DNA from: Rhizobium sp. Leaf262
GTDB taxonomy: Bacteria; Pseudomonadota; Alphaproteobacteria; Rhizobiales; Rhizobiaceae
Direction: 5' to 3'
DNA: 64,000 nt
Assembly (NCBI RefSeq): GCF_001422245.1
Contig: NZ_LMMM01000018.1
Coordinates: forward strand, 1,088-65,087
Below, one piece after another: positions 39,763 through 58,598 of this stretch. Below the pieces are notes generated by a model. That model had not been told where the DNA came from. It made no database searches and saw only the letters and a list, made by a program, of their open reading frames with translations. A program made the position numbers and the translations under genes. Each line of letters starts with the position of its first letter. The first letter of the stretch is position 1.

Positions 39763-40458
39763 TTATACCGTCAAATGTCGCCGCGCTTCAACCGTATCCA
39801 GCGTTTCAGCCACCCCTTCGTGCACGATCTCACCGCGATCCATGATGTAAACGTAATCGGCAAGCTCGCGGCAAAAATCGAGATATTGCTCCACCAGCAG
39901 GATCGCCATCCCCGTAGAGTCCCGTAGATATTTGATGGCACGGCCGATATCCTTGATGATCGACGGCTGGATGCCTTCGGTCGGCTCGTCCAGCACCAGG
40001 ATTTTGGGGCGTGTCACCAGCGCGCGGCCAATGGCCAATTGCTGCTGCTGCCCGCCCGAGAGATCGCCTCCCCTGCGTGAGAGCATGGATTGCAGCACCG
40101 GAAACAGGCTGAAAATATCATCGGGAATGAAGCGTTCCTTGCGCGGCAGCGGCGCATAGCCGGATTGTAGATTTTCCTGCACCGTCAACAACGGAAAAAT
40201 CTCGCGCCCCTGCGGCACATAACCAACGCCGCGCTTGGCGCGCTGGTAGGGCGCAAGCCCGTTGAGGCTCTCACCGCCGAAACTGATGGTGCCGCCGCTG
40301 AGCGGATGCTGACCGGTCACGGCACGCAGCAACGAACTCTTGCCGACGCCGTTGCGCCCCAGCACACAGGTAATCTTGCCCATTTCCGCATTCAGCGAAA
40401 TGCCGCGCAAGGCTTGCGCTGCGCCGTAATGGAGATTGATGTTTTCGACGCTTAGCAT
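39763..40458 (-). CDS. urtE: UrtE, urea ABC transporter ATPase
   Basis: 231 residues with Walker A GRNGVGKSSLL, signature LSGGQQQQLAIGRAL and Walker B ILVLDEPTEGI. Of the two Urt ATPases, UrtE is the LivF-like one. Last gene of the urt operon. An imperfect hairpin at about 39745-39772 overlaps its 3' end and may end transcription. Confidence 0.94.
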   Translation of the reverse strand: MLSVENINLHYGAAQALRGISLNAEMGKITCVLGRNGVGKSSLLRAVTGQHPLSGGTISFGGESLNGLAPYQRAKRGVGYVPQGREIFPLLTVQENLQSGYAPLPRKERFIPDDIFSLFPVLQSMLSRRGGDLSGGQQQQLAIGRALVTRPKILVLDEPTEGIQPSIIKDIGRAIKYLRDSTGMAILLVEQYLDFCRELADYVYIMDRGEIVHEGVAETLDTVEARRHLTV

Positions 40459-40471
40459 TCATCCACCTGTT

Positions 40472-40990
40472 CTAGTTCAGTAACGTTCGCCTCAGTGCCT
40501 GTAGTGCAGAGTCCTGCTCACTGGTTTTTTCGCCACCCACCCGGGCAACCTCTTCGGCGATGTCGATCAGTTGGCGTCGTTCATCGAAATCCAACGCGTT
40601 CGCCCAGATGTCCCGGAAACGGCGAATTGGGTCTTCAGGGTTGACGACATTCTTCGAAGCCCATTCTCCAAAGACGATTACTTCTTCCATGTCCTTCGAC
40701 GCGATGATGTTTTTCATCTTCTCACGAACGACCGATTTTGCCGCTTCCACATGCATCGGCTTTTCGTTTGCGAGGCACATGAAGAACGCAACAGCAGCAA
40801 TCGCGGGATCACGAATAGAGGCGATGGGTGCGACTTCGGCCTTCTTGCGAAATGACCGGCGCTTATAGGCCCCACGCATTTTCTCGACCGTATCGATGAT
40901 CTCGCTGCCCGCTTCCCGCATCATCTTCAGCCGCCAATACCAAACTGCCGCACCACCGATTGCCATCACCAAAAGTCCGACCAAAGCCAT
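40472..40990 (-). CDS. TerB-like membrane-anchored protein inside the urt operon
   Basis: 172 residues. One N-terminal membrane helix (ALVGLLVMAIGGAAVWYWRL), a basic linker (AYKRRSFRKKAE) and an all-helical domain (DPAIAAVAFFMCLANEKPMH .. QLIDIAEEVARVGGEKTSEQ) that resembles TerB-type helical domains. Function unknown. It sits between urtD and urtE (gaps 76 and 13 bases) on the same strand, so it should be co-transcribed with the urea transporter. Confidence 0.7.
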   Translation of the reverse strand: MALVGLLVMAIGGAAVWYWRLKMMREAGSEIIDTVEKMRGAYKRRSFRKKAEVAPIASIRDPAIAAVAFFMCLANEKPMHVEAAKSVVREKMKNIIASKDMEEVIVFGEWASKNVVNPEDPIRRFRDIWANALDFDERRQLIDIAEEVARVGGEKTSEQDSALQALRRTLLN

Positions 40991-41066
40991 TAAATCAACT
41001 CCAGATTTTAAATTTCACGATTTAAATCTGGTTCTGATTGAAGGCGCAAGTCAGACCTCACTGTTT

Positions 41067-41828
41067 CTAGCGCCCCAAATAATTCTCGATCACCTTGGGA
41101 TCGCTCGACACAAAATCAATCGACCCTTCGGCGAGTACCGATCCCTCGGCCAGACACGTTACCTTGACGCCCAGTTCGCGGATGAAGCCCATGTCGTGTT
41201 CCACCACCACCACGGAACGGGTCTTGGCGATTTCCTTCAGCAGCACTGCCGTCTCTGCCGTCTCGGCGTCCGTCATGCCTGCCACGGGTTCATCCACCAG
41301 AAGCAGCTTCGGCTCCTGCGCCAGCAGCATGCCGATTTCTAGCCACTGCTTTTGCCCGTGAGAAAGATTGGCGGCCAGATCGTTGCGGCGTGAGCTGAGG
41401 CGGACCGTGGCCAAAATCTCTTCGATGCGGGCCTTGTCCTCTTCCGTCAGGCGGTAGAACAGCGTGGCGAAGACGCCGCGTTTGCGGTTAAGCGCCAGTT
41501 CCAGATTGTCCCAGACCGTATGGCTTTCGAACACCGTCGGCTTCTGAAACTTGCGACCGATGCCGAGCTGGGCGATATCCGCCTCGTCCTTTTTGGTGAG
41601 GTCGATGCTGTCTTCAAACAGCACCTTGCCCGTGTCTGGCCGGGTCTTGCCGGTGATGATGTCCATCATGGTCGTCTTGCCCGCGCCATTCGGCCCGATG
41701 ATGGCGCGCAATTCGCCGGGCTCGACCACGAAGGACAGGGAATTCAACGCCTTGAAACCGTCGAAGGAAACGGAGACGCCGTCGAGATAGAGCAGGCTTT
41801 TCGTTCTGTTTTCGGCAACCGTGTTCAT
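41067..41828 (-). CDS. urtD: UrtD, urea ABC transporter ATPase
   Basis: 253 residues with Walker [12 protein letters not shown], signature LSHGQKQWLEIGMLL and Walker B LLLVDEPVAGM. LivG-like ATPase of the urea/short-chain amide transporter. It starts five bases after the urtC stop. Confidence 0.95.
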   Translation of the reverse strand: MNTVAENRTKSLLYLDGVSVSFDGFKALNSLSFVVEPGELRAIIGPNGAGKTTMMDIITGKTRPDTGKVLFEDSIDLTKKDEADIAQLGIGRKFQKPTVFESHTVWDNLELALNRKRGVFATLFYRLTEEDKARIEEILATVRLSSRRNDLAANLSHGQKQWLEIGMLLAQEPKLLLVDEPVAGMTDAETAETAVLLKEIAKTRSVVVVEHDMGFIRELGVKVTCLAEGSVLAEGSIDFVSSDPKVIENYLGR

Positions 41829-41833
41829 ATGTG

Positions 41834-43012
41834 TTACTCCGCAGCCTGTTGCGCCGGTTTGACGGCATCGCCATTTTCCGCGCGCTTGGCCGCATCCTTA
41901 GACGCTTCCACCCGCTTTTCGCGCCGTCCTGCCAGATAATGCTGGGCAGTGCCGACGATACCCTTGGGGAAGAACAACGTGACCGCAATGAACAGCCCGC
42001 CCAGCGCAAACAGCCAGAACTCGGGGAATGCGCCGGTGAAATAGCTCTTGCCGCCATTGACGAGGATTGCGCCGAGGATCGGCCCGATCAACGTGCCGCG
42101 CCCTCCAACTGCCGTCCAGACGACGACCTCGATGGAATTGGCAGGCGAGAATTCGCCGGGATTGATGATGCCTACCTGCGGCACGAAGAGTGCACCGGCA
42201 ATCCCCGCCATCATGGCCGAGACGACGAAGGTGAAGAGCTTGATGTTTTCCACCCGGAAACCCAGAAACCGCACCCGGCTTTCCGCATCCCGTACACCCA
42301 CCAGCACTTTGCCGAATTTGGAATTGACGATGCCGGACGCAATCAGCAGGCAAAGCGCCAGCATGATCGCCGTCATGGCAAACAGAACGGCACGCGTGCC
42401 ATCCGCCTGCACGGAAAAGCCGAGAATGTCTTTAAAGTCCGTCAGGCCGTTATTGCCGCCAAAGCCCATATCGTTGCGGAAAAAGGCCAGCAGCAGGGCA
42501 TAGGTCATGGCCTGCGTGATGATCGAGAGGTAGACGCCGTTGACGCGGGAGCGAAAGGCAAACCAGCCGAAGACGAAGGCCAGCAGGCCCGGCACCACAA
42601 GCACCATCAGCATCGCAAACCAGAACATATCGAAGCCATGCCAGAACCACGGCAGTTCCTTCCAGTTCAGGAACACCATGAAGTCCGGCAGAACAGGATG
42701 GCCATAGGTTCCGCGCGTGCCGATCTGGCGCATCAGATACATGCCCATGGCATAACCGCCGAGCGCGAAGAAGGCGGCGTGACCGAGCGAGAGAATGCCG
42801 CAATAACCCCAGACCAGATCAAGCGCCAGCGCCAGAATGGCATAGGCCAGATATTTGCCCAGCATGGACATGATGTAGGTCGGAATGCGGAATGCGCTGT
42901 CTGCGGGAAGCAGCAGGTTGGACGCGGGCACGAGAACCGCGATGGCGAGGATAATGCCGATGGCGATGAGGATCCGGCGGTCGAGCGCCCGAAGGAGGAA
43001 GCCGGTAATCAT
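41834..43012 (-). CDS. urtC: UrtC, urea ABC transporter permease
   Basis: 392-residue LivM-like permease with about ten membrane helices and the conserved cytoplasmic loop VGVRDAESRVRFLGFRVENI. Its ATG overlaps the urtB stop (ATGA). The long plus-strand open frame over this gene is a shadow. Confidence 0.95.
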   Translation of the reverse strand: MITGFLLRALDRRILIAIGIILAIAVLVPASNLLLPADSAFRIPTYIMSMLGKYLAYAILALALDLVWGYCGILSLGHAAFFALGGYAMGMYLMRQIGTRGTYGHPVLPDFMVFLNWKELPWFWHGFDMFWFAMLMVLVVPGLLAFVFGWFAFRSRVNGVYLSIITQAMTYALLLAFFRNDMGFGGNNGLTDFKDILGFSVQADGTRAVLFAMTAIMLALCLLIASGIVNSKFGKVLVGVRDAESRVRFLGFRVENIKLFTFVVSAMMAGIAGALFVPQVGIINPGEFSPANSIEVVVWTAVGGRGTLIGPILGAILVNGGKSYFTGAFPEFWLFALGGLFIAVTLFFPKGIVGTAQHYLAGRREKRVEASKDAAKRAENGDAVKPAQQAAE

Positions 43013-44625
43013 GCTTCGATGGCCCTTCCCTTGAGTGCGAAGAGACCGCGTGGCCGCTTCTGAATGAACAGGATGATGAGAACGAGAACGAGAATTTTGC
43101 CGAGAACCGCACCGACTGTGGGCTCAAGAAACTTGTTGAGCACGCCGAGCGACAGCGCTCCGACCAGCGTTCCCCAGAGATTGCCGACCCCGCCAAACAC
43201 CACCACCATGAAACTGTCGATGATGTAGGACTGGCCAAGATTGGGCGAGACATTGTCGATTTGGCTGAGCGCCACACCCGCCAGCCCGGCAACGCCAGAG
43301 CCAAGCGCAAAGGTGAAGGCATCCACCCAGGAGGTGCGAATACCCATGGAAGAAGCCATGCGACGGTTTTGCGTCACAGCCCGCATTTGCAACCCGAAGG
43401 CCGAGCGCTTGAGCAACAGAAGTAGGGCAAAGAAGACGGAAAGCGAGAAGCAGACGATCCAGAGGCGGTTCCAAGTGAAGTTCATATAGCCGACGCTGAA
43501 AGACCCGGACATCCAGCTGGGGTTGCCGACTTCACGGTTGGTGGGACCGAAGATGGAGCGCACGCCCTGCTGCAAAATCAGCGAAATGCCCCATGTGGCC
43601 AGCAGTGTTTCCAGCGGGCGGCCATAGAGAAAACGGATGACGCCGCGCTCCATGACGAGGCCAACGGCAGCGGTGACCAGAAACGCAACCGGCAACGCAA
43701 TCGTCAGCGACCAGTCGAACAGGCCGGGATAATGGCTGCGGATCACCTCCTGCACCATGAAGGTGGAGTAGGCGCCGATCATGACCATCTCGCCATGCGC
43801 CATGTTGATGATGCCCATGACGCCGAAGGTGATGGCAAGACCGATGGCCGCCAGCAGCAGCACCGAGCCCAAGGACAGGCCGTACCAGATGTTTTGCGCA
43901 TAATCCCACAGCGCAAGCGAGCTCTCGATCTTGATGATCGCAGACATGACGTCTTCGCGCAGCATCGGGTCGAGATTAGGAGATGCGGATTGAAGAATGC
44001 CGATAACACTGCGACCGCCGATATTCGCGATCGTTTGGATCGCTGCGCGCTTTTCCTCGACCGAACGATCCGAAGCAAGAACCGAAACGGCGCGCGCCTC
44101 TTCCATGCGGCCACGCACCTGCGCATCCGTTTCCTTGGCAAGCGCCGTCTCCAGCAATTGCAGATTTTCCGCGCTCGGTGCTTTCAGGACCGCATCGGCT
44201 GCGGACAGGCGAACGAATTTTTCCGGGCTGAGCAGCGTCAGACCGCCGAGTGCCGCACGAATGACGCGGCGAAGATTGTTATTGACCTTGATCTTGGCAA
44301 CCGCCGCCTTCGGCGCTTCGCCCACACTTTCGCCGGTTAGCGGATTGACAAGCGTAAGATTGGCACCAGCGGGTTTGGTCATGAAAACGAGAGTGTCGGA
44401 CTTGCGAACATAAAGCTCGCCCTCCGCAAAGGCATTCAGCGGCGGGACCACACGCGGGTCTCCCGTCGCCGCAATCTGCCCGATCAGGGCTTCGGCCTGC
44501 TTGAAATCGGCAGTGCCGAGTGCGTCGATGAGGGGTTTAGGATCGGTTTGCTGCGCGTAGGTTGGAGCGGCGATCCCGAGCGTCAGCCATAGGAACATGG
44601 CTCGAAGAAGAAATCGGATCGTCAT
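43009..44625 (-). CDS. urtB: UrtB, urea ABC transporter permease with N-terminal domain
   Basis: 538 residues. A signal peptide (FLLRAMFLWLTLGIAAPTYA) and about 220 residues of helical extracytoplasmic domain precede the LivH-like permease domain (from about 240; LAITFGVMGIINMAHGEMVM). Such an extension is typical of proteobacterial UrtB. Role of the extension unknown. It follows urtA after a 270-base gap holding a long inverted repeat. Confidence 0.93.
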   Translation of the reverse strand: MTIRFLLRAMFLWLTLGIAAPTYAQQTDPKPLIDALGTADFKQAEALIGQIAATGDPRVVPPLNAFAEGELYVRKSDTLVFMTKPAGANLTLVNPLTGESVGEAPKAAVAKIKVNNNLRRVIRAALGGLTLLSPEKFVRLSAADAVLKAPSAENLQLLETALAKETDAQVRGRMEEARAVSVLASDRSVEEKRAAIQTIANIGGRSVIGILQSASPNLDPMLREDVMSAIIKIESSLALWDYAQNIWYGLSLGSVLLLAAIGLAITFGVMGIINMAHGEMVMIGAYSTFMVQEVIRSHYPGLFDWSLTIALPVAFLVTAAVGLVMERGVIRFLYGRPLETLLATWGISLILQQGVRSIFGPTNREVGNPSWMSGSFSVGYMNFTWNRLWIVCFSLSVFFALLLLLKRSAFGLQMRAVTQNRRMASSMGIRTSWVDAFTFALGSGVAGLAGVALSQIDNVSPNLGQSYIIDSFMVVVFGGVGNLWGTLVGALSLGVLNKFLEPTVGAVLGKILVLVLIILFIQKRPRGLFALKGRAIEA

Positions 44626-44895: not shown

Positions 44896-46185
44896 TCAGC
44901 TACCCTTGCCACCGCACTTACCCGTGGCAACATTGAAGTTGCCGCAGGACATCGGCTTGCGCCAATCCGAGATCAGGTCCTTGCTATCAGGCAGGTAATC
45001 CGACCATTCGTCGCCTACGACCTGCGGGGTCTGCTGCACGATCTGGAACTGGCCGTCGGACTGGATCTCACCGATCAACACCGGCTTGGTGATGTGGTGG
45101 TTCGGCATGACGGTGGCGTAGCCGCCCGAGAGGTTCGGCACGGAAACGCCGATGATCGAGTCCAGCACCTTGTCGGTATCTGTCGTGCCAGCGGCTTCGA
45201 CGGCCTTGACCCAGGCGTTGAAGCCGATATAGACGGCTTCCATCGGGTCGTTGGTCACGCGCTTGTCGTTCTTGGTGAAGGCGTGCCATTCCTTGATGAA
45301 CTCTGCATTCACAGGGGCATCGACGGACTGGAAGTAGTTCCAGGCGGCAAGGTGGCCGACCAGCGGGCTGGTATCGAGACCGGCAAGTTCTTCTTCGCCC
45401 ACCGAGAAGGCGACGACCGGAATGTCTTCAGCCTTCACGCCCTGGTTTGCCAGCTCTTTGTAGAACGGCACGTTGGCGTCCCCATTGATGGTGGAAACCA
45501 CGGCGGTCTTCTTGCCGGCAGAGCCGAATTTCTTGATGTCGGACACGATCGTCTGCCAGTCGGAATGGCCGAATGGCGTGTAGTTGATCATGATGTCCTC
45601 TTCCTTGACGCCCTTCGACATCAGGTAGGCCTTCAGGATCTTGTTGGTTGTCTGCGGATAGACATAGTCCGTACCGGCTAGAACCCAGCGCTCGACGCCT
45701 TCGGTGTTGGCCAGATAATCAACAGCCGGAATGGCCTGCTGGTTTGGCGCGGCACCGGTGTAGAAGATATTGCGGGAGGATTCTTCACCCTCATACTGCA
45801 CGGGATAGAAGAGAATGGAGTTGAGCTCTTCGAAAACCGGCAGAACGGATTTGCGCGAGGACGAGGTCCAGCAACCGAAGACGGCGGCGACCTTATCCTG
45901 CGAAATCAGCTGGCGGGCCTTTTCAGCAAACAGTGGCCAGTCGGAGGCCGGATCGACAACCACGGCTTCGAGCTTCTTGCCCAGAACGCCGCCCTTCTTG
46001 TTCTGCTCTTCGATGAGCATCAGCATGGCGTCTTTGAGGGTCGTTTCGGAAATCGCCATAGTGCCGGACAGCGAATGCAGAACACCGACCTTGATGGTGT
46101 CGTCAGCGGCAAAGGCACCGTGGAATGCGGTGGTGGACATAATAGCGCCAAACAAAGCGCCACTCAGCATCTTTTGAAATGTCAT
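44896..46185 (-). CDS. urtA: UrtA, urea-binding protein
   Basis: 429 residues, signal peptide ending TAFHGAFA, mature start ADDTIKVGVLHSLSGTMAIS. Core motifs such as FGCWTSSSRKSVLPVFE and LFYPVQYEGEE are diagnostic for the urea/short-chain-amide binding protein. First gene of urtABCDE. A 16-bp perfect palindrome lies 96 bases upstream and a 7-bp hairpin (46222-46241) in the leader. Confidence 0.96.
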   Translation of the reverse strand: MTFQKMLSGALFGAIMSTTAFHGAFAADDTIKVGVLHSLSGTMAISETTLKDAMLMLIEEQNKKGGVLGKKLEAVVVDPASDWPLFAEKARQLISQDKVAAVFGCWTSSSRKSVLPVFEELNSILFYPVQYEGEESSRNIFYTGAAPNQQAIPAVDYLANTEGVERWVLAGTDYVYPQTTNKILKAYLMSKGVKEEDIMINYTPFGHSDWQTIVSDIKKFGSAGKKTAVVSTINGDANVPFYKELANQGVKAEDIPVVAFSVGEEELAGLDTSPLVGHLAAWNYFQSVDAPVNAEFIKEWHAFTKNDKRVTNDPMEAVYIGFNAWVKAVEAAGTTDTDKVLDSIIGVSVPNLSGGYATVMPNHHITKPVLIGEIQSDGQFQIVQQTPQVVGDEWSDYLPDSKDLISDWRKPMSCGNFNVATGKCGGKGS

Positions 46186-46280: not shown

Positions 46281-46296
46281 TACGTCAATTGACGTA
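46281..46296. promoter_or_regulatory. Perfect 16-bp palindrome upstream of urtA
   Basis: TACGTCAATTGACGTA is perfectly symmetric and lies 96 bases upstream of the urtA start. It is a likely operator for an unidentified dimeric regulator of the urea-transport operon. Confidence 0.6.
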
Positions 46297-49117: not shown

Positions 49118-52100
49118 ATGGCCGCACGGCAACGCATCATCCCCGTCAGGCGCGAATATAACCGTTGGGTCGCCAACCAGACGCTGGAAGATTACGCGCT
49201 GCGCTTTACCGCCAAAAGCGCGCGGCAGTTTTCCTCCAGCCGCATTTCCCACACCGCCATCGGCGCTATATCGTTTCTGGCGCTGGAAGCCATCGGCGGC
49301 GCGATTACACTGTCCTATGGCACCACGAATGCCTTCTTCGCCATCCTCGTCGCTGCCACCGTCATGCTGGCGGTGGGTGTGCCGATCAGCCGTTACGCCA
49401 TCCGCTACGGCGTCGATATCGATCTACTGACGCGCGGTGCGAGCTTCGGCTATATCGGCTCCACCATCACCTCGCTCATCTACGCCGCCTTTACCTTCAT
49501 GCTCTTTGCCATCGAGGCATCGATCATGTCCGGCGCGCTGGAACTGGCGCTCGGCATACCCTTGTGGATCGGCTATATCATCTCGGCCGTCATGGTCATT
49601 CCGCTCGTCACCCACGGCGTGCGGCTGATCAGCCGTTTCCAGATCATCACCCAGCCCTTCTGGATCATCCTCAACATCCTGCCCTTCATCTTCATCGCCT
49701 TTATGGACTGGGGCAAATTCGATCTTTGGCGGGCTTTTGCGGGTATTCACCACGCTTCCGGCCCGCCGGGGACGACAGCGGATTTCAACCTCATCGAATT
49801 CGGTGCGGCGTCCGCCGTCATTCTGGCGCTGATGTCGCAGATCGGGGAGCAGGTGGATTTCCTTCGCTTCCTGCCTGCCGATGGCAAGCTGAAACTGCGG
49901 CATCGCTTTGCGGTGTTTCTCGCAGGGGCTGGCTGGGTTCTGGTCGGTGTACCGAAACTGCTGGCAGGCTCCTTCCTGGTGGTACTGACCTTCAGTTCCG
50001 GCGTTCCTGTCGATCGCGCCGCCGATCCCTCGCAAATGTATCTGACCGCCTTCGGCTATATGATCCCCAACGAGAACGCCGCTTTGTTGCTGATGGTGGC
50101 TTTCGTCGTCGTCTCGCAGCTCAAGATCAACGTCATGAACGCCTATGCCGGGTCGCTGGCATGGTCGAACTTCTTTTCCCGTCTCACCCACAGCCACCCG
50201 GGCCGCGTCGTCTGGCTGGTCTTCAACGTCCTGATCGCGCTGCTGTTGATGGAACTCGGCATCTACCGGCTGCTGGAGGAAACGCTCGGCATCTTCTCCA
50301 TCATCGCCATGGCGTGGCTCTGCACCATCTCAGCCGATCTCTTCATCAACAAGCCACTCGGCCTTGCGCCGCCGGGCATCGAGTTCAAACGTGCGCATCT
50401 CTACGACATCAACCCTGTCGGAGTCGGCACCATGGCGCTGTCTGCCACCATTGCGCTGACGGCTCATTTCGGCCTGTTCGGTACGCTGGCCGCATCGCTT
50501 GCGCCCTACCTCACCCTCATCGTCGCCTTCACCGTCTCCCCGCTGATTGCCTGGGGCACGAAGGGAAAATTCTACCTTGCGCGCAAGCCGCGACAGACGT
50601 GGAAACTGGAAAGCAGCATCACCTGCTCCATCTGCGAACATCCGTTCGAGCCAGAGGACATGGCCTGGTGCCCCGCTTATGCCGCGCCAATCTGTTCGCT
50701 CTGCTGCTCGCTGGACAGCCGCTGCCATGATATGTGCAAGCCCAAGGCCAAGCTGAACTATCAGGTCGCCACCGTCGCACGCGCGTTCCTGCCGAATGAT
50801 CTGGTGGCCCGCCTCGCCACCCGGCTGGGGCGCTATGCCATGTCGGCGGCGCTGGCCATCATCGTCTTGGGCGCAACGCTGGCCCTGATTGCGCATCAGG
50901 TTGGCACCTCCTCCCCCGCCACTGTGGATGTGGTCAACCGCACGATCCTTGCGGTCTTCTTCGTCTTTGCCGTCATCGCCGGTATCGTCTGCTGGTTTCT
51001 GGTTCTCGCCCATGACAGCCGCGTCGTGGCGGAGGAAGAATCCTCGCGCCAGAACACGCTTTTGCTAAAGGAAATCGCTGCACACAAAAAGACTGACGCC
51101 GCACTACAGAACGCCAAGGACACGGCGGAAGCTGCCAATCGCGCGAAAAGCCGCTACGTCGTCGGCCTTAGCCATGAATTGCGCACGCCGCTGAACGCCG
51201 TTCTCGGCTACGCGCAAATCCTAGAGCGCGACGACACCATTCCTCAGCCGCGCCAGTCCGCCATCAAGGTCATCCGCCGCTCCGCCGACCACCTGTCGGG
51301 ACTGATCGATGGCCTCTTGGATATTTCCAAGATCGAAGCGGGCCGCCTGCAGGTCTATTCCAACGAAATCAACATTCAGGATTTTCTCGACCAGATCATC
51401 GATCTCTTCCGCCCGCAGGCGCAGGCAAAGGGGCTAGATCTGCTGCACGAGCGCGCCCGCGCGCTGCCGCAATATGTTCGCACCGACGAGAAGCGCCTTC
51501 GCCAGATTCTCGTCAATCTTCTGTCCAACGCCATCAAGTTCACCGATGCAGGGCAAGTGCGCTTCGATGTCGCCTATCGCAGCCAGGTCGCGACCTTCAC
51601 CATTTCCGATACGGGACGCGGCATCGCCGAGAAGGATTTGAGCCGTATCTACGAACCGTTCCAGCGCGGTGAGGCCGAAAGCATCCGCCCCATGCCGGGC
51701 CTTGGCCTTGGGCTGACCATCACCCAGCTGTTGACCAACACGCTGGGCGGTGAAATTTCCGTGGTCAGCGAAAAAGACAAGGGCTCAACCTTCAAGGTGC
51801 GGCTAATGCTCTCGGCGGTGGATCGTCCCAGCACCGCGCCTGCGCCGGAAAAAACCATCGTCTCCTATTCCGGCCCGCGCCGCACCATCGTCGTGGTTGA
51901 CGATAATGAGGATCATCGCGAATTGATGCGCGAGGTGCTTGGCCCGCTCGATTTCGTGGTGCTGACGGCCCAAAGCGGCCCGGATTGCCTGACGCTCATC
52001 GAAGGCGTCAAACCCGACCTGTTCCTGATCGATATTTCCATGCCCGGCATGAGCGGTTGGCAACTTGTGACGAAGCTGCGGGAGGCGGGCCAGACTGCGC

Positions 52101-52516
52101 CTCTCATCATGCTCTCGGCCAATATTGGCGATGGTTCGATCGCTGGCGCGGGCGAGGACAATCACAACGACACGATTGCCAAGCCGGTCGATATCCGCCG
52201 CCTGTGCGACAAGCTCGCCGTGCATCTGGGCCTGACATGGGTTTATGATACGGATGCCCCTGCCCTGACCACGCCCGCCAGGGCCGAGATCACCACGCCT
52301 GGGCCATCGCACATCAAGGATTTGCAGCAGCTGGGTGAAATCGGCTATATCAGAGGCATCGAGGCGAAGCTTGCCGACCTCGCCCGCACTTCTGAAAATC
52401 TGGCCTTCACCGAAGAACTGACGGGCTACGTGCAGTCCTTCGATATGGCGGGCTACGCCGCCTTTCTCAACCGTTTTGAGAACCAGCCCAGCATCAAAAA
52501 GGAGCGTCAGCCATGA
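49118..52516 (+). CDS. NCS1-transporter-fused hybrid histidine kinase
   Basis: 1132 residues. The first ~490 form a 12-helix domain of the nucleobase/cation symporter 1 type (SLGxG-like FLALEAIGGAITLSYGTTNA; GVDIDLLTRGASFGYIGSTI). Next, about 503-540 carry nine cysteines and two His in a zinc-like cluster (TCSICEHPFEP .. PICSLCCSLDSRCHDMCKP). One or two membrane helices follow (to about 645), then HisKA (His 686 in SHELRTPLNAVLGY), HATPase (NLLSNAIKF, DTGRGI, GLGLGL) and a REC domain (phospho-Asp about 972 in FLIDISMPGM). It probably senses a purine- or hydantoin-like compound or its transport. The response regulator gene overlaps its stop. Confidence 0.88.
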   Translation: MAARQRIIPVRREYNRWVANQTLEDYALRFTAKSARQFSSSRISHTAIGAISFLALEAIGGAITLSYGTTNAFFAILVAATVMLAVGVPISRYAIRYGVDIDLLTRGASFGYIGSTITSLIYAAFTFMLFAIEASIMSGALELALGIPLWIGYIISAVMVIPLVTHGVRLISRFQIITQPFWIILNILPFIFIAFMDWGKFDLWRAFAGIHHASGPPGTTADFNLIEFGAASAVILALMSQIGEQVDFLRFLPADGKLKLRHRFAVFLAGAGWVLVGVPKLLAGSFLVVLTFSSGVPVDRAADPSQMYLTAFGYMIPNENAALLLMVAFVVVSQLKINVMNAYAGSLAWSNFFSRLTHSHPGRVVWLVFNVLIALLLMELGIYRLLEETLGIFSIIAMAWLCTISADLFINKPLGLAPPGIEFKRAHLYDINPVGVGTMALSATIALTAHFGLFGTLAASLAPYLTLIVAFTVSPLIAWGTKGKFYLARKPRQTWKLESSITCSICEHPFEPEDMAWCPAYAAPICSLCCSLDSRCHDMCKPKAKLNYQVATVARAFLPNDLVARLATRLGRYAMSAALAIIVLGATLALIAHQVGTSSPATVDVVNRTILAVFFVFAVIAGIVCWFLVLAHDSRVVAEEESSRQNTLLLKEIAAHKKTDAALQNAKDTAEAANRAKSRYVVGLSHELRTPLNAVLGYAQILERDDTIPQPRQSAIKVIRRSADHLSGLIDGLLDISKIEAGRLQVYSNEINIQDFLDQIIDLFRPQAQAKGLDLLHERARALPQYVRTDEKRLRQILVNLLSNAIKFTDAGQVRFDVAYRSQVATFTISDTGRGIAEKDLSRIYEPFQRGEAESIRPMPGLGLGLTITQLLTNTLGGEISVVSEKDKGSTFKVRLMLSAVDRPSTAPAPEKTIVSYSGPRRTIVVVDDNEDHRELMREVLGPLDFVVLTAQSGPDCLTLIEGVKPDLFLIDISMPGMSGWQLVTKLREAGQTAPLIMLSANIGDGSIAGAGEDNHNDTIAKPVDIRRLCDKLAVHLGLTWVYDTDAPALTTPARAEITTPGPSHIKDLQQLGEIGYIRGIEAKLADLARTSENLAFTEELTGYVQSFDMAGYAAFLNRFENQPSIKKERQP

Positions 52517-53439
52517 GCGTCCCGTCTGCCGCGCTAGCGAAGGATATCGTTCTTCTGGTGGATGATAGCCCGGACGCGCTGGGCTTCCTGACCGATGCGC
52601 TGGAACAATCCGGCTTTTCCGTTCTGATCGCCACCTCCGGGCAATCGGCCCTCAACATCGCAGAGCGCATCACCCCCGATATCATCCTGCTGGACGCCGT
52701 TATGCCATCAATGGATGGTTTCGAAACCTGCACGCGGCTGAAAGCCAACGCGGCGGTCACGCAGGTGCCGGTCATCTTCATGACCGGGCTGACCGAGACG
52801 GAACATGTGGTGCGGGCGTTGGAATCCGGCGGTGTCGATTATCTGACGAAGCCGATCAATATCGATGAGCTGCGCGCTCGCATCCGCGTCCACCTGTCCA
52901 ATGCCCGTTCCGCTCAAAGTGCGCGCGTGGCGCTGGATGCCGCAGGTCGCCACCTGCTGGCGGTGCGCGCAAACGGTGCCATTCACTGGTCGACGCCACA
53001 AGCAACGCGGCTGGTCAATGCTGCGACAGGTCGTGATGACGGGCTGGAAATCGTGACTCAGCATATCGCAGGATGGCTCGCCAATCGCGGAAACGACGTA
53101 CCGCGTGATGCGCCGCTGACCATTCAACAGGCGGATCGGGCCACACTGCAACTGACGTTTCTTGGTGCGATGGGGCCGGATGAGCATCTGTTCCGGCTGA
53201 CGGCTGCGAGCGACAAGCCTGCCGACGCGATGCTGCGCCAGCATTTCGCTCTGACGGTCAGGGAATCTGAAGTGCTGCTCTGGATCGCCAAGGGCAAGTC
53301 CAACCGGGATATCGGCGATATTCTTGGCCTCTCTTCCCGCACGGTGAACAAGCATCTGGAGCAGATTTACGTCAAACTCGGCGTCGAGAATCGCGCCTCC
53401 GCGGCCGTGAAGGCCGCTCATATTTTGCACGAAACATAA
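52513..53439 (+). CDS. LuxR-type response regulator
   Basis: 308 residues: N-terminal REC (Asp in ILLDAVMPSMDG near residue 60, Lys in YLTKPINIDEL), a middle region of unknown role, and a C-terminal LuxR/FixJ helix-turn-helix (SNRDIGDILGLSSRTVNKHL). The ATG overlaps the kinase stop (ATGA), so the two are a cognate pair. The REC of the kinase and this REC suggest a phosphorelay or branched signalling. No target gene is evident here. Confidence 0.92.
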   Translation: MSVPSAALAKDIVLLVDDSPDALGFLTDALEQSGFSVLIATSGQSALNIAERITPDIILLDAVMPSMDGFETCTRLKANAAVTQVPVIFMTGLTETEHVVRALESGGVDYLTKPINIDELRARIRVHLSNARSAQSARVALDAAGRHLLAVRANGAIHWSTPQATRLVNAATGRDDGLEIVTQHIAGWLANRGNDVPRDAPLTIQQADRATLQLTFLGAMGPDEHLFRLTAASDKPADAMLRQHFALTVRESEVLLWIAKGKSNRDIGDILGLSSRTVNKHLEQIYVKLGVENRASAAVKAAHILHET

Positions 53440-53489: not shown

Positions 53490-53723
53490 TTAACGGCAGA
53501 CGCGGGTTTCCTTGATGACGACGCGGCCATGGTGATGCGTACGAACCTTCTTGACGAAGCAATCGCGAGCAACACGATGGTGGTGGCGAGGGCGATACTC
53601 TTCGCGCATCGGGGTGCGGACCTTCTGCGTGGTGGTAACAGTCACTGTATCAGCGTAGGAAGGTGCCGAAAAAACAAAGACGGAAGAAACTGCAATCAAA
53701 GACGAGATCAGAAGAGTTTTCAT
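53490..53723 (-). CDS. Small basic secreted protein
   Basis: 77 residues with a signal peptide (MKTLLISSLIAVSSVFVFSA..SYA) and a short mature part rich in Arg and His (EYRPRHHHRVARDCFVKKVR) with two cysteines. Family not recognised. AGAGG lies before ATG 53723, although the frame opens at 53936. Might bind metal, nucleic acid or membrane lipid; no evidence to choose. Confidence 0.75.
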   Translation of the reverse strand: MKTLLISSLIAVSSVFVFSAPSYADTVTVTTTQKVRTPMREEYRPRHHHRVARDCFVKKVRTHHHGRVVIKETRVCR

Positions 53724-53853
53724 GTCAGTACCTCTTGGTTGGGGTGCAGAAAAACGTTCAATACCCCGTCCGGTTCCAGCCAAAAACATTAATACTGCGT
53801 AATGTACGGCTCTAAGAAAAACTCTATCTTCCCAGCAACATAGGAGAGTTGAT

Positions 53854-54399
53854 ATTAGCAAAACCACAAGTAACTTCGTCGTCCTTTCCGGATGCTCCGG
53901 TGGTGGGAAATCGACCCTGCTGGAAGAGTTGGCCAAACGCGGTCATGCTATCGTCGAGGAGCCTGGTCGGCGCATTGTAAAGGCCGTGATAGACCATGGC
54001 GGAAGCGCCTTACCGTGGATCGACATGGAGGCTTTTGCCCGCCGCGCGATTGCTCTGTCCATAGAGGATCGATCAAAGGCACCCAAATCCGGCTGGGTCT
54101 TTTTTGACCGAAGTTTGGTGGATGCGGCCTCGGCACTGCGCCATATTTGCGGTGACGACTTTATCGAAAAGCTGGCCCACGACCACCGTTATAATAGATG
54201 TGTTTTCCTGACGCCGCCATGGCCGGAAATCTACCAGATGGATGGAGAGCGGCAGCACGGCTTTACAGCGGCGGTGGAAGAATATGACCGGCTGCTCCGC
54301 GATTATGCAGAACTGAGCTACGAAACCAGAATACTCCCGAAATCGACGCCATCGGAACGCGCCGCATTTCTTCTGCAAACGTTGGAGGGCAAACCTTAA
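53854..54399 (+). CDS. Small P-loop ATPase (AAA family) with a probable ATT start
   Basis: About 181 residues. Walker A SGCSGGGKST lies near residue 12, followed by GHAIVEEPGRRIVKAVI and a late helical part, as in the AAA_28 group. Between an in-frame stop at 53800-53802 and the Walker A there is no ATG, GTG or TTG; ATT 53854 has TAGGAG seven bases upstream and is the best start. TTG 53929 lies after Walker A and would truncate it. Function unknown; the last four bases overlap the convergent deacetylase gene. Confidence 0.75.
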   Translation: MSKTTSNFVVLSGCSGGGKSTLLEELAKRGHAIVEEPGRRIVKAVIDHGGSALPWIDMEAFARRAIALSIEDRSKAPKSGWVFFDRSLVDAASALRHICGDDFIEKLAHDHRYNRCVFLTPPWPEIYQMDGERQHGFTAAVEEYDRLLRDYAELSYETRILPKSTPSERAAFLLQTLEGKP

Positions 54400-55252: not shown

Positions 55253-56371
55253 TCAGGTGCCCTGCTGGAAGTAGCTGTACTTGCCGTCTGGACCCTTCTT
55301 CCACTCGTACATGACGTAGCCTGGAAGTTTCGGGTCGCCCTTTTCATCAAAGGAGATATCACCCAGAACGGTCTTGTAGGAGCCCTTCTTCAACGCTGCG
55401 GCAACGGCTTCGGCATCCGTGGAGCCAGCGGCCTTCGCGCCCTCTGCAATCGTCTGAACGGCTGCGTAGGAGTAAAGCGTGTAAGCTTCCGGGTTGAAGC
55501 CGGCCTTCTTGAACTTCTCGACCAGTTCCTTGTTTTCAGGACGCAGGGTCGGGTCAGGACCGAAGGTGTTCAGCGTGCCTTCGACAGCGTCGCCTGCGAT
55601 GGAAGCGAGTTCGTTGGAGACGATGCCGTCACCCGAAACGAGCTTGGCCTGAAGACCCTGATCCTTCGCCTGGCGAATGATCAGACCAGCTTCGGTATGG
55701 AGACCGCCCCAGTAAATAACGGAGACGCCAGCTTCCTTCATCTTCGCGATCAGCGCGGAGAAATCCTTGTCGCCGACGTTGACGCCTTCATAGATGGCTT
55801 CCTTCACGCCAGCAGCGTTTGCAGCCTTCTTGGTTTCATCGGCAAGACCCTGACCGTAAGGTGTCTTGTCGTGAATGATGGCAATCTTGGCGTCCTTGAA
55901 GTGGTCGGCCAGATACTTGCCGGCAATACCGCCCTGCTGGTCGTCACGTCCGCAGGTGCGGAACGTGTTCCACAGACCGCGCTCGGTGAACACAGGGTTC
56001 GTGGCGGCAGGTGTGATTTCGAGAATGCCGTTTTCTGCATAAACTTCCGACGCCGGAATGGATACGCCAGAGTTGAAGTGACCGACAACGAACTTGACGC
56101 CGTCAGCAACAAACTTGTTGGCTACCGAAATGCCCTGCTTGGGGTCGGACACGTCATCGCCGAGAACGATCTTGATCTGCTCGCCATTGATGCCGCCTGC
56201 AGCATTGATGTCTGCCGCAGCCTGCTCAGCACCCTTCTGAAGCTGCGCGCCGAAAGCCGCATTCGGGCCGGTCAGCGGGCCGCCGACGGCGATGAGAATG
56301 TCAGCCCAGGCGGAACCACTGAAGGCGACCATTGCGGTCAGCGCAACTGCGGAAAGAAGAGACTTCTTCAT
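55253..56371 (-). CDS. livK: LivK, branched-chain amino acid binding protein
   Basis: 372 residues, signal peptide ending AFSGSAWA, mature start [20 protein letters not shown], and the LivJ/K core ([20 protein letters not shown]). Last of the liv genes, after DUF6867; the 115-base gap upstream may hold an extra promoter. Confidence 0.94.
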
Positions 56372-56486
56372 TATATTACTCCCAGTTCCATGGTTGGGTT
56401 GATTATCTCTGCCTGCTCAGCACCCACCTTAACTGCTCAGGCTGTTCCACTCATGCGCGCATTCTGAATTCAGAAAAATGCCGCTG

Positions 56487-56852
56487 TCAATCTTTCTTCT
56501 TATAAGAAAATACCGAAGTTCGGTCATACAGCCAGTAGTACTTATCGACCATCTGGCTGGTGCGACGCACCCGGAAGCCAACCGTCGCAAAGACCAGCAG
56601 AACGACGACATCGATCAGGTAGTAAAAACCGTCCAGCATGGGTCCCGCAAACAGCGCATAGTGCAAAAAGCGCATCACCACACCCAGCAGCAGCGTATAG
56701 ACGACCACCCGCGGATAGTCTTCCCAACCGTCAGCAACGGACTTGCCCGTGCGCCAGGCAGTCCAGAACCCGAGAAGAACAACGAGAGCGCGCAAGACAT
56801 AGCGTACGCCGCTGTCACTTTCGAAAAAAAGTCCCTGCATCTTTTTCCCCAT
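56487..56852 (-). CDS. DUF6867-like membrane protein in the liv operon
   Basis: 121 residues with three hydrophobic segments (about 17-35, 48-68, 72-92) and the motif VVYTLLLGVVMRFLHYALFA, matching a small family found beside liv genes in Rhizobiales. Function unknown. AAAGG lies before ATG 56852; ATG 56840 is an alternative with GGGG. It lies between livF and livK. Confidence 0.8.
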   Translation of the reverse strand: MGKKMQGLFFESDSGVRYVLRALVVLLGFWTAWRTGKSVADGWEDYPRVVVYTLLLGVVMRFLHYALFAGPMLDGFYYLIDVVVLLVFATVGFRVRRTSQMVDKYYWLYDRTSVFSYKKKD

Positions 56853-57006
56853 CAGCGCCTTTGGCTTCTTTGCCGCCGGATCTGCCTTTGATTTTCCCGC
56901 CCGCCGTTTGCCGGCAGGCTTTATTGTTATATGGCTCCACAGGCACGCCGCTCTGAACGACTGCCTGACATTGGTCCGCGCCCACCAAAGGCAGGCACGG
57001 ATGTTT

Positions 57007-57735
57007 CTAGTGGCGACCGCCTTCGAGATAGGCAGCGCGCACTTCAGGGTTGGCCAGCAATTCCTTGCCGGAACCGCTCATCGTTACCTTACCGTTGACC
57101 ATGACATAGGCGCGGTCGGAAAGTTTCAGGGCTGCGAATGCGTTCTGCTCCACGAGGAAGACGGTGAGCCCCTCCTCCTTGTTCAGCGTCTTGATCGCCT
57201 CGAAAATACCCTTGACGATCAACGGTGCAAGACCGAGCGAAGGCTCATCCAGGAGGAGCAGCTTGGGACGCGACATCAGCGCGCGGCCGATGGACAACAT
57301 CTGCTGCTCACCGCCAGACAGTGTGCCGCCACGCTGGCTCTGACGTTCCTTCAGGCGCGGGAACATCGTGAAGATTTTCTCGACGTCTTCCTTGAAGTAT
57401 TTCAAATTATCGAGATTGGCGCCCATCTGGAGATTTTCCAGAACGGTCATCCGCGGAAAAATGCGACGTCCTTCGGGTGACTGCGCGATGCGGCGACGGG
57501 CGATCAGATGCGTCGGCACCTTCGTGATGTCTTCGCCATCGAAAATCACAGAGCCGGTACGGGCCTGCGGGCTGCCGCAGATCGTCATCATCAGCGTCGA
57601 CTTGCCGGCACCGTTGGCGCCGATCAGGCTGACGATCTCGCCCTTGTTGACTTCGACATCGACGCCAGCCAAGGCGCGGATATTGCCGTAATAGGTTTCT
57701 ACGCTCTGGACTTTGAGAAGGGGTTCACCGGACAT
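57007..57735 (-). CDS. livF: LivF, branched-chain amino acid ABC ATPase
   Basis: 242 residues: Walker [12 protein letters not shown], signature LSGGEQQMLSIGRAL, Walker B LLLLDEPSLGL. Its start overlaps the livG stop by one base. Confidence 0.96.
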   Translation of the reverse strand: MSGEPLLKVQSVETYYGNIRALAGVDVEVNKGEIVSLIGANGAGKSTLMMTICGSPQARTGSVIFDGEDITKVPTHLIARRRIAQSPEGRRIFPRMTVLENLQMGANLDNLKYFKEDVEKIFTMFPRLKERQSQRGGTLSGGEQQMLSIGRALMSRPKLLLLDEPSLGLAPLIVKGIFEAIKTLNKEEGLTVFLVEQNAFAALKLSDRAYVMVNGKVTMSGSGKELLANPEVRAAYLEGGRH

Positions 57736-58598
57736 CAGATTGTCCCCCCAAGTTCTTCTGCAATCACTTCTTCCACTTCATCATCCTCGACACCCAGATA
57801 GGCGGCGATGACCTTCGGGTCGTTCTTTACATGGTCAGGCGTACCATCGGAAATCTTCTGACCATATTCGAGAACCACGACGTGGTCGGAAATCTCCATG
57901 ACAACGGACATGTCGTGCTCGATCAGGAGCAGAGACGTGCCTTCAGCCCTGATCCCACGCAAGAGATTGTTGAGCGCCAGAGATTCCTTCGGGTTGAGAC
58001 CCGCTGCAGGCTCATCGAGGCATAAAAGCTCGGGCTCGGTGCACATGGCACGGGCGATTTCCAGGCGCCGCTGCGCACCATAGGGAAGATCGCCAGCCGG
58101 ATCGTCGGCACGCTCTGTCAGATCAGCCTTGTCCAGCCAATATTTGGCTTTCTCTATCGCACCGGCAGCCGCCTTCTTGTAGACCGGCATGCCGAGCAAT
58201 CCGAGGAATGTGTAGCCGGACGCCTTCATCAGCGCGTTGTGCTGAGCCACCAGCAGGTTTTCCAAAACGGTCAGACCGGAAAAAAGCCTAATGTTCTGGA
58301 AGGTACGTGCAACCTTGGCCTTCTTGGTGATCTCGAAATCGGGCAAACGCTCGAGCAGGTGTTCTTCACCCGTCTTGCGGCGCATGGTGATCATCCCCAT
58401 CGTCGGCTTGTAGAAGCCGGTGATGCAGTTGAACACGGTCGTCTTGCCCGCACCGTTGGGGCCGATCAGCGCGGTAATCTCGCCGCGCCGTGCCTCAAAG
58501 GAGAAGTCGTTGATGGCCATGAGACCGCCGAACTTCATGGACAGGTGTTCAACCTTGAGAATGGTGTCTGTTGTCATTGCACTATTACCGGAAACCAT
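57735..58598 (-). CDS. livG: LivG, branched-chain amino acid ABC ATPase
   Basis: 287 residues: Walker [12 protein letters not shown], signature [15 protein letters not shown], Walker [12 protein letters not shown]. It is longer than LivF because of the LivG-type insert ([20 protein letters not shown]). ATG 58598 overlaps the livM stop (TGATG); ATG 58577 is a weaker alternative. Confidence 0.95.

Follow-up and report, generated by a model that had tools for sequence, protein, structure and literature searches.

Within a 64,000 nucleotide stretch of the genome of Rhizobium sp. Leaf262 (contig NZ_LMMM01000018.1, positions 1,088 to 65,087; this whole stretch is referred to below as the window), our analyses have focused on two overlapping genes that encode a hybrid sensor histidine kinase with a permease-like N-terminal half and a response regulator of the LuxR type. 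We propose, with a probability of roughly 0.7, that these genes form a two-component system for urea or short-chain amides, which is of permease descent and controls the urea transporter genes urtABCDE. The comparative basis of this proposal consists of the domain layout of the proteins, the genes that recurrently accompany the pair, a palindrome before urtA and its linkage to the pair, and the relation of the sensor to stand-alone permeases. The coordinates of all features are summarized in Table 1.

The kinase contains the Pfam domains HisKA, HATPase_c and Response_reg, and the motifs SHELRTP (which includes His686), NLLSNA, DTGRGI and GLGLGL, together with the receiver Asp972, are all present in it, as is characteristic of hybrid histidine kinases. 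The regulator combines Response_reg with GerE (LuxR), i.e., the receiver and GerE helix-turn-helix typical of the NarL/FixJ type. By their open reading frame (ORF) coordinates the two genes overlap by 4 bp, and the hybrid kinase of 1132 residues with an overlapping LuxR regulator gene, as reported in a preliminary description of this DNA, is borne out by both ORFs and their Pfam domains. Hydropathy indicates 12 hydrophobic segments within residues 47–471 of the kinase and two more at residues 574–592 and 610–628, the latter corresponding to the extra membrane helices of the same description. The surrounding genes also lie where it had placed them (1 kb from glnII and a few kb from urt), the end of glnII being 1.0 kb and the start of urtA 2.9 kb upstream of the kinase. 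The best-matching segment of the kinase is 99% identical to isolate AFS091568 and 95% identical to A. rubi, and the window is Agrobacterium-like.

The sensor region recurs beyond what chance would give, with matches in 88/297 genomes of the order and 59/398 genomes of the phylum; both counts include the own genome as well as a small number of others in which only a distant stand-alone permease was matched. The source of our census was 155 loci of at least 7.5 kb with a sensor match, from which 61 representatives below 80% identity were taken; nine of the 155 loci had been missed by the ORF caller, and eight of these were added by hand (L072 was left out), resulting in 69 loci. After removal of two loci lacking a kinase (L152 and L214, the latter a stand-alone permease with weak matches of 28% and 24%), 67 kinase loci remained. 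Neighbouring genes were recorded by directed tblastn over fetched stretches of 10–30 kb, which was used instead of a blind clustering of neighbouring ORFs that proved noisy, apparently owing to antisense ORFs in GC-rich DNA.

A urtA-like, amidase or ureC gene is present within the fetched stretch in 66 of the 67 dereplicated kinase loci, viz. a urtA-like gene in 55, an amidase gene (FmdA, AmiE or AmiF) in 40 and ureC in 8. The exception is an Acinetobacter locus (L154) with no urtA match, where the gene divergent from the kinase-regulator pair encodes a stand-alone permease that belongs to the family of the sensor. The urtA gene is divergent from the kinase and within 2.6 kb of it in 51/67 loci, and of the 62 kinases that exceed 1000 amino acids (aa), 61 are followed by a cognate regulator. 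Since each same-genus genome searched contains only one to three UrtA homologues, the association of urt genes with the kinase is unlikely to have arisen by chance. The urtA products of the window, of one related locus and of a Klebsiella plasmid pass the model TIGR03407; for the amidases, the respective NCBIfam model is passed by one FmdA, one AmiE and the AmiF of the plasmid. Nine of the 23 recurrent neighbour clusters were scanned and they consist of proteins for urea or amides, signalling proteins and an AAA ATPase; no family for the use of purines, allantoin or hydantoin is found among these nine, the remaining clusters (partly antisense artefacts) not having been scanned. The link to nitrogen metabolism made in the preliminary description is hence upheld, the recurrent partners being genes for the transport and hydrolysis of urea and short-chain amides.

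A common inverted repeat was seen in a discovery set of 89 aligned urtA-kinase intergenic regions no longer than 700 bp, as TACGTN6ACGTA in 55 of them and as TACGN8CGTA in 19 more, with neither form in 15. The window contains the 16-bp palindrome TACGTCAATTGACGTA before urtA, and this perfect match at 46281–46296 is its sole match to TACGTNANNTNACGTA with up to two mismatches (chance 0.41 for up to two mismatches). The Agrobacterium-like loci (L031–L048) were outside the discovery set because urtA is separated from the kinase by glnII in 18/18 of them, and by an SDR gene as well in 12/18; glnII occupies this place in 18/46 displaced loci, all Agrobacterium-like, and is not recurrent elsewhere in the census. 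In a search of 14 genomes, TACGTNANNTNACGTA has one exact match in the own 5.05-Mb genome, before urtA, and exactly one match, again before urtA, in seven of the eight other same-genus genomes, the eighth having the one-base variant TACGTCGTTTGACGTA before urtA; a reversed control pattern matched one genome. Outside the discovery set, where the urtA-kinase gap exceeds 700 bp, the site is present before urtA in 43/46 loci, which are not independent cases since many of them are close relatives.

The linkage of the palindrome to the gene pair is also evident in other positions and genomes. The site lies within 750 bp upstream of the kinase in 34/67 loci, compared with 0.0066 expected per locus from the flanking density, and nine of the 10 sites found elsewhere in 1.18 Mb around the kinases are directly before urtA or fmdA. 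It is present before urtA in 4/4 same-family genomes with the kinase near urtA, in 1/16 genomes in which urtA is distant from the kinase, and in 0/22 genomes without a kinase match. The site is also present before the Acinetobacter kinase. No sigma-70 promoter was found between urtA and glnII.

The sensor domain appears by indirect evidence to be a remote relative of the NCS1 permeases, because stand-alone permeases link the kinase family to PF02133 and CodB. A profile of the sensors aligns over nearly the full length with one built from seven more distant stand-alone permeases (hhalign 99.9%, E 2.8e-36); six of these seven were scanned and all match PF02133 (one over the cut-off and five below), and the profile of the seven matches CodB (7qoa) with E 9e-4. 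A stand-alone permease from Klebsiella, which shares 40% identity with the sensor across 525 aa, matches PF02133 over the cut-off (1.4e-9), and homology to accepted NCS1 members is thus provided by this protein and the hhalign result; the 12 membrane helices of the family are matched by hydropathy only. In the Pfam scan, no gathering-score match to PF02133 was obtained for the kinase, for any of the 34 proteins scanned from its family, 33 of them kinases and one a permease, or for any protein of the own genome. The NCS1-like transporter of the preliminary description therefore stands by way of its stand-alone relatives and not by a direct match, and the combination of PF02133 with HisKA in one protein, which it had suggested looking for, was not encountered, HisKA alone being found. 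A profile search of PDB sequences with the kinase sensor family found no chain; a direct phmmer search of the sensor against PDB gave only weak matches, to G-protein chains, and was discarded. The kinase has no SSF match (Pfam scan, E up to 1) and is accordingly not assigned to the SSS (SLC5) family, and in the same Pfam scan its residues 500–670, where a STAC domain would lie between transporter and kinase, gave no match.

The segment that follows the sensor domain contains eight cysteines (residues 503, 506, 518, 526, 529, 530, 536 and 540), where the preliminary description had counted nine in a cluster that is otherwise as it stated. Their conservation among orthologues, on which that description had made its interpretation depend, is complete, all eight being kept in 67/67 dereplicated kinases, and in the wider set the spacing fits in 153/155 loci, the two exceptions being permeases without a kinase. 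Among the eight stand-alone permeases in the tree alignment, CxxC...CxxC is kept at the equivalent place in seven, cysteine 518 is found in three, and cysteines 530, 536 and 540 are found in one (Methylovirgula). By these counts, the two CxxC pairs are common to permeases and kinases and the other four cysteines are fixed in the kinases only. In the kinases of four loci (L183, L206, L209 and L212), the permease domain and the cysteine module are set further apart by a variable stretch.

The stand-alone permeases are 40–48% identical to the sensor where compared. In a tree of 75 sensors and permeases (drawn at midpoint), the kinases and the stand-alone permeases are split by one branch, and the context changes on this tree at least three times for urt and at least four times for urease. 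Three genomes (G493, G513 and G636) contain two paralogues each, of which one adjoins an amide cluster and the other urease. In a plasmid collection, the Acinetobacter permease has counterparts of 60% identity or more in 18 records, 12 of which were inspected together with one at 52%. Ten of these 13 permeases are in urease clusters (two from Klebsiella and three from Acinetobacter plasmids), near a formamidase or aliphatic amidase gene (those of Moraxella, Tsukamurella, Methylovirgula and Arthrobacter U41), or beside a kinase pair (that of A. baumannii). In Tsukamurella two genes lie between the permease and fmdA, and the Methylovirgula permease is also beside a kinase pair. The gene order in Arthrobacter (permease, aliphatic amidase, AAA ATPase, acetate-CoA ligase) would be consistent with the use of acetamide.

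Several further observations were made on these kinases and permeases. Five loci (L111, L112, L113, L116 and L117) form a separate clade of kinases of about 900 aa, which have the same sensor and cysteines and no room for a receiver; the fmdA start is 4.8–6.6 kb from the kinase start in this clade, and a protein of the REC-HisKA-HATPase-REC type follows the kinase in L111. Genes annotated as "cytosine permease" follow Klebsiella urease genes in L274 (6944–8551) and L282 (5944–7551) and possibly encode urea permeases. In Mycobacterium smegmatis, the successive locus tags msmeg_3402/3403 denote a putative cytosine permease and a formamidase, both of which are listed as upregulated under nitrogen starvation (PMC4222082), and this permease possibly belongs to the same family as the relatives of the sensor.

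The mechanism that we infer from these comparisons, which includes the ligand, activation as the direction of control, DNA binding, the metal, the phosphotransfer route and the role of the cysteines, would be as follows. The ancestor of the N-terminal half of the kinase would have been a small urea or amide permease of the NCS1-like kind, and the transporter would change its conformation when it binds, or attempts to transport, urea (in this lineage) or a related short-chain amide. The eight-cysteine module, probably zinc-bound and structural, and the two helices that follow it may relay this signal to the kinase core and His686, from which phosphate would pass to the receiver Asp972 and then to Asp61 of the regulator, either directly or via an additional phosphotransfer step. 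The phosphorylated regulator is predicted to bind TACGTCAATTGACGTA 95 bp before urtA and thereby to turn on urtABCDE. The proposal is directly testable, since it predicts a ligand class, a DNA site and, strongly, one target in the genome to which the window belongs.

The closest working model is the acetate system CrbS/CrbR, by analogy with which the same logic may apply to urea and short-chain amides. As described in PMC5715377, CrbS/CrbR consists of an SSS-STAC hybrid kinase and a LuxR-type regulator, with an imperfect palindrome before uptake and use genes, and this palindrome was reportedly not found in enterobacteria lacking the system. Both pairs have a transporter-fused hybrid kinase, a LuxR-type regulator and a palindrome before uptake genes, whereas CrbS has an SSS (SLC5) domain, STAC and acetate as its signal, and the present kinase has an NCS1-like domain, an eight-cysteine module and urea or amides as its predicted signal. 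The SSS-STAC kinases of CbrA/CbrB and RpuS/RpuR likewise have permease-derived sensors, but differ in transporter family, linker and targets; the transporter domain of CbrA is described as still transporting histidine (PMC7918813) and RpuS/RpuR as controlling a pyruvate symporter (PMC9100948). The NCS1 permeases CodB, Mhp1 and PucI are related to the kinase family at the profile level via the stand-alone permeases, but no scanned kinase matches PF02133 and the partners of the kinases point to urea and amides.

Our full-text literature searches, whose coverage excludes most subscription journals, identified no dedicated urea-sensing histidine kinase and no role for the present kinase. Two published gene clusters may contain members of its family. 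The Klebsiella pneumoniae plasmid pTHO-017-1 (L151) carries a kinase-regulator pair with urt-like genes and amiF; on this IncFIB plasmid, a kinase 47% identical to that of the window, a regulator and the palindrome adjoin the urt/amiF cluster. This cluster resembles in composition the "UTS" cluster (UrtABC/AmiF) described for K. pneumoniae CG307, and the two are presumably the same; the terms "histidine kinase" and "response regulator" do not occur in the main text of that report (PMC13060141). The flanks of the L151 cluster are a clpK/hsp20 heat-shock island and a cluster of a second acetamidase with a peptide ABC transporter, and 342 of the 531 plasmid records with a sensor match are from Klebsiella. 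In Ectopseudomonas guguanensis G3, a hybrid kinase and a LuxR-type regulator are named in text and figure legend beside a second urtABCDE set, with fmdA at a nearby locus tag and no function proposed for the kinase and regulator in these passages (PMC13296017); this kinase would appear to belong to the present family.

A number of observations weigh against our proposal. The ligand, DNA binding and expression control are predictions from genome comparison, and the choice of urea as ligand in the window is derived from urtABCDE only, because the contexts of the family mix urea and amides. Residue 340 of the kinase is Thr in 35/35 kinases in an amide context, Met in 13/13 members of the rhizobial urea clade and Ala in 3/3 members of a second urea clade, but it is again Thr in 6/6 members of a third urea clade, leaving no clean signature of specificity; residues 340 and 402 were considered as urea/amide discriminators and are suggestive, but neither holds across all lineages. 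No site is present before the kinase, urtA or fmdA in 26/67 kinase loci, including seven of the eight ureC loci and all five short kinases (these have no LuxR regulator either). The pattern TACGTNANNTNACGTA matches an unrelated place in one of five other-genus genomes (G003, which has no kinase match), and the looser TACGTN6ACGTA has a second exact match elsewhere in the own genome. Lastly, three of the 13 inspected permeases (two from Streptomyces and one from Arthrobacter) have no urea or amide gene nearby, and PF02133 was matched over the cut-off in only one of six close stand-alone permeases scanned, the other five having no match.

Other explanations are less well accommodated by these results. 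The preliminary description had suggested that the kinase senses a nitrogen-rich ring compound (a purine, pyrimidine, hydantoin or allantoin), as classical NCS1 carriers would, and the indirect relation of the sensor to NCS1 and the annotation of several stand-alone relatives as "allantoin" or "cytosine" permeases agree with this; we nevertheless hold it to be highly improbable, as most of the genes so annotated sit in urease or amidase clusters, the nine scanned neighbour clusters (the only recurrent ones examined in this way) include no ring-catabolism family, and the near-unique palindrome lies before urtA. Alternatively, the transporter-like domain may bind no ligand and may instead sense the activity of the Urt or Fmd ABC transporter, the state of the membrane, or the ammonia or pH change resulting from hydrolysis. 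Transporter-coupled sensing is known for other kinases, and the presence of a urtA-like gene at most kinase loci (55/67) would suit it, but some kinases are beside urease without urt genes in the fetched stretch, the Acinetobacter kinase is beside a stand-alone homologue of its own sensor with no urtA match, and the permease domain has 60 positions that do not vary among the 75 sensors and permeases, as for a working transporter; we regard this possibility as unlikely.

The palindrome could also be bound by another nitrogen regulator, with the kinase pair controlling something else. The urt genes of many bacteria are under general nitrogen control, the 26 siteless loci described above agree with this reading, and binding of the site by the present regulator is a prediction; however, the palindrome is absent before urtA in 22/22 kinase-less genomes and in 15/16 genomes whose urtA is away from the kinase, and it is present before the Acinetobacter kinase at a locus without a urtA match, so that we give this explanation a slim chance. 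Control of urtABCDE by a urea- or amide-responsive kinase-regulator pair is hence our preferred reading.

A broader proposal, to which we would give even odds, is that the sensor and its stand-alone relatives constitute an unrecognised NCS1-derived family of urea/short-chain-amide permeases whose cysteine tail binds metal and which are now often annotated as cytosine or allantoin permeases. A single fusion to a kinase would have produced a urea/amide sensor. This sensor would later have been enlisted on several occasions by urt, fmd and urease genes and have reached Klebsiella plasmids, and the extra cysteines invariant in the kinases could provide a second input, of a metal or redox kind. Our results suggest that urea or amides may be carried by some of the transporters so annotated. 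The use of urea and formamide is relevant to soil nitrogen, to plant-associated bacteria and to gut or urinary bacteria.

Table 1. Positions in the window of the kinase-regulator pair, its domains, the candidate binding site and the urt genes.
Feature	Position	Strand	Details
Hybrid sensor histidine kinase gene	49118..52516	+	1132 aa; phospho-acceptor His686 and receiver Asp972 by motif
12-segment NCS1-like permease-derived sensor domain	49172..50587	+	residues 19–490; homology and hydropathy
Eight-cysteine module	50618..50743	+	residues 501–542; C-x2-C-x11-C-x7-C-x2-CC-x5-C-x3-C
Additional pair of hydrophobic segments, after the cysteine module and before the kinase core	50837..51001	+	residues 574–628; hydropathy
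HisKA	51146..51343	+	Pfam; kinase residues 677–742
HATPase_c	51482..51811	+	Pfam; kinase residues 789–898
Kinase receiver (Response_reg)	51887..52216	+	Pfam; residues 924–1033
REC-LuxR response regulator gene	52513..53439	+	308 aa; phospho-acceptor Asp61 by motif
16-bp palindrome TACGTCAATTGACGTA, proposed regulator binding site	46281..46296	unassigned (.)	95 bp before urtA
urtA, urea ABC transporter binding protein	44896..46185	-	TIGR03407 over cut-off; proposed first gene of the controlled operon
urtB, urea ABC transporter permease	43009..44625	-	TIGR03409 over cut-off
urtC (41834–43012), urtD (41067–41828), urtE (39763–40458)	within 39763..43012	-	named by position and conserved order

On the other side of the gene pair, the regulator gene is followed on the minus strand by a small ORF without a Pfam match (53490–53936). 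Further downstream on the same strand (55253–58598), ORFs were read by eye as a putative second binding protein of the branched-chain-amino-acid type and ABC ATPases.

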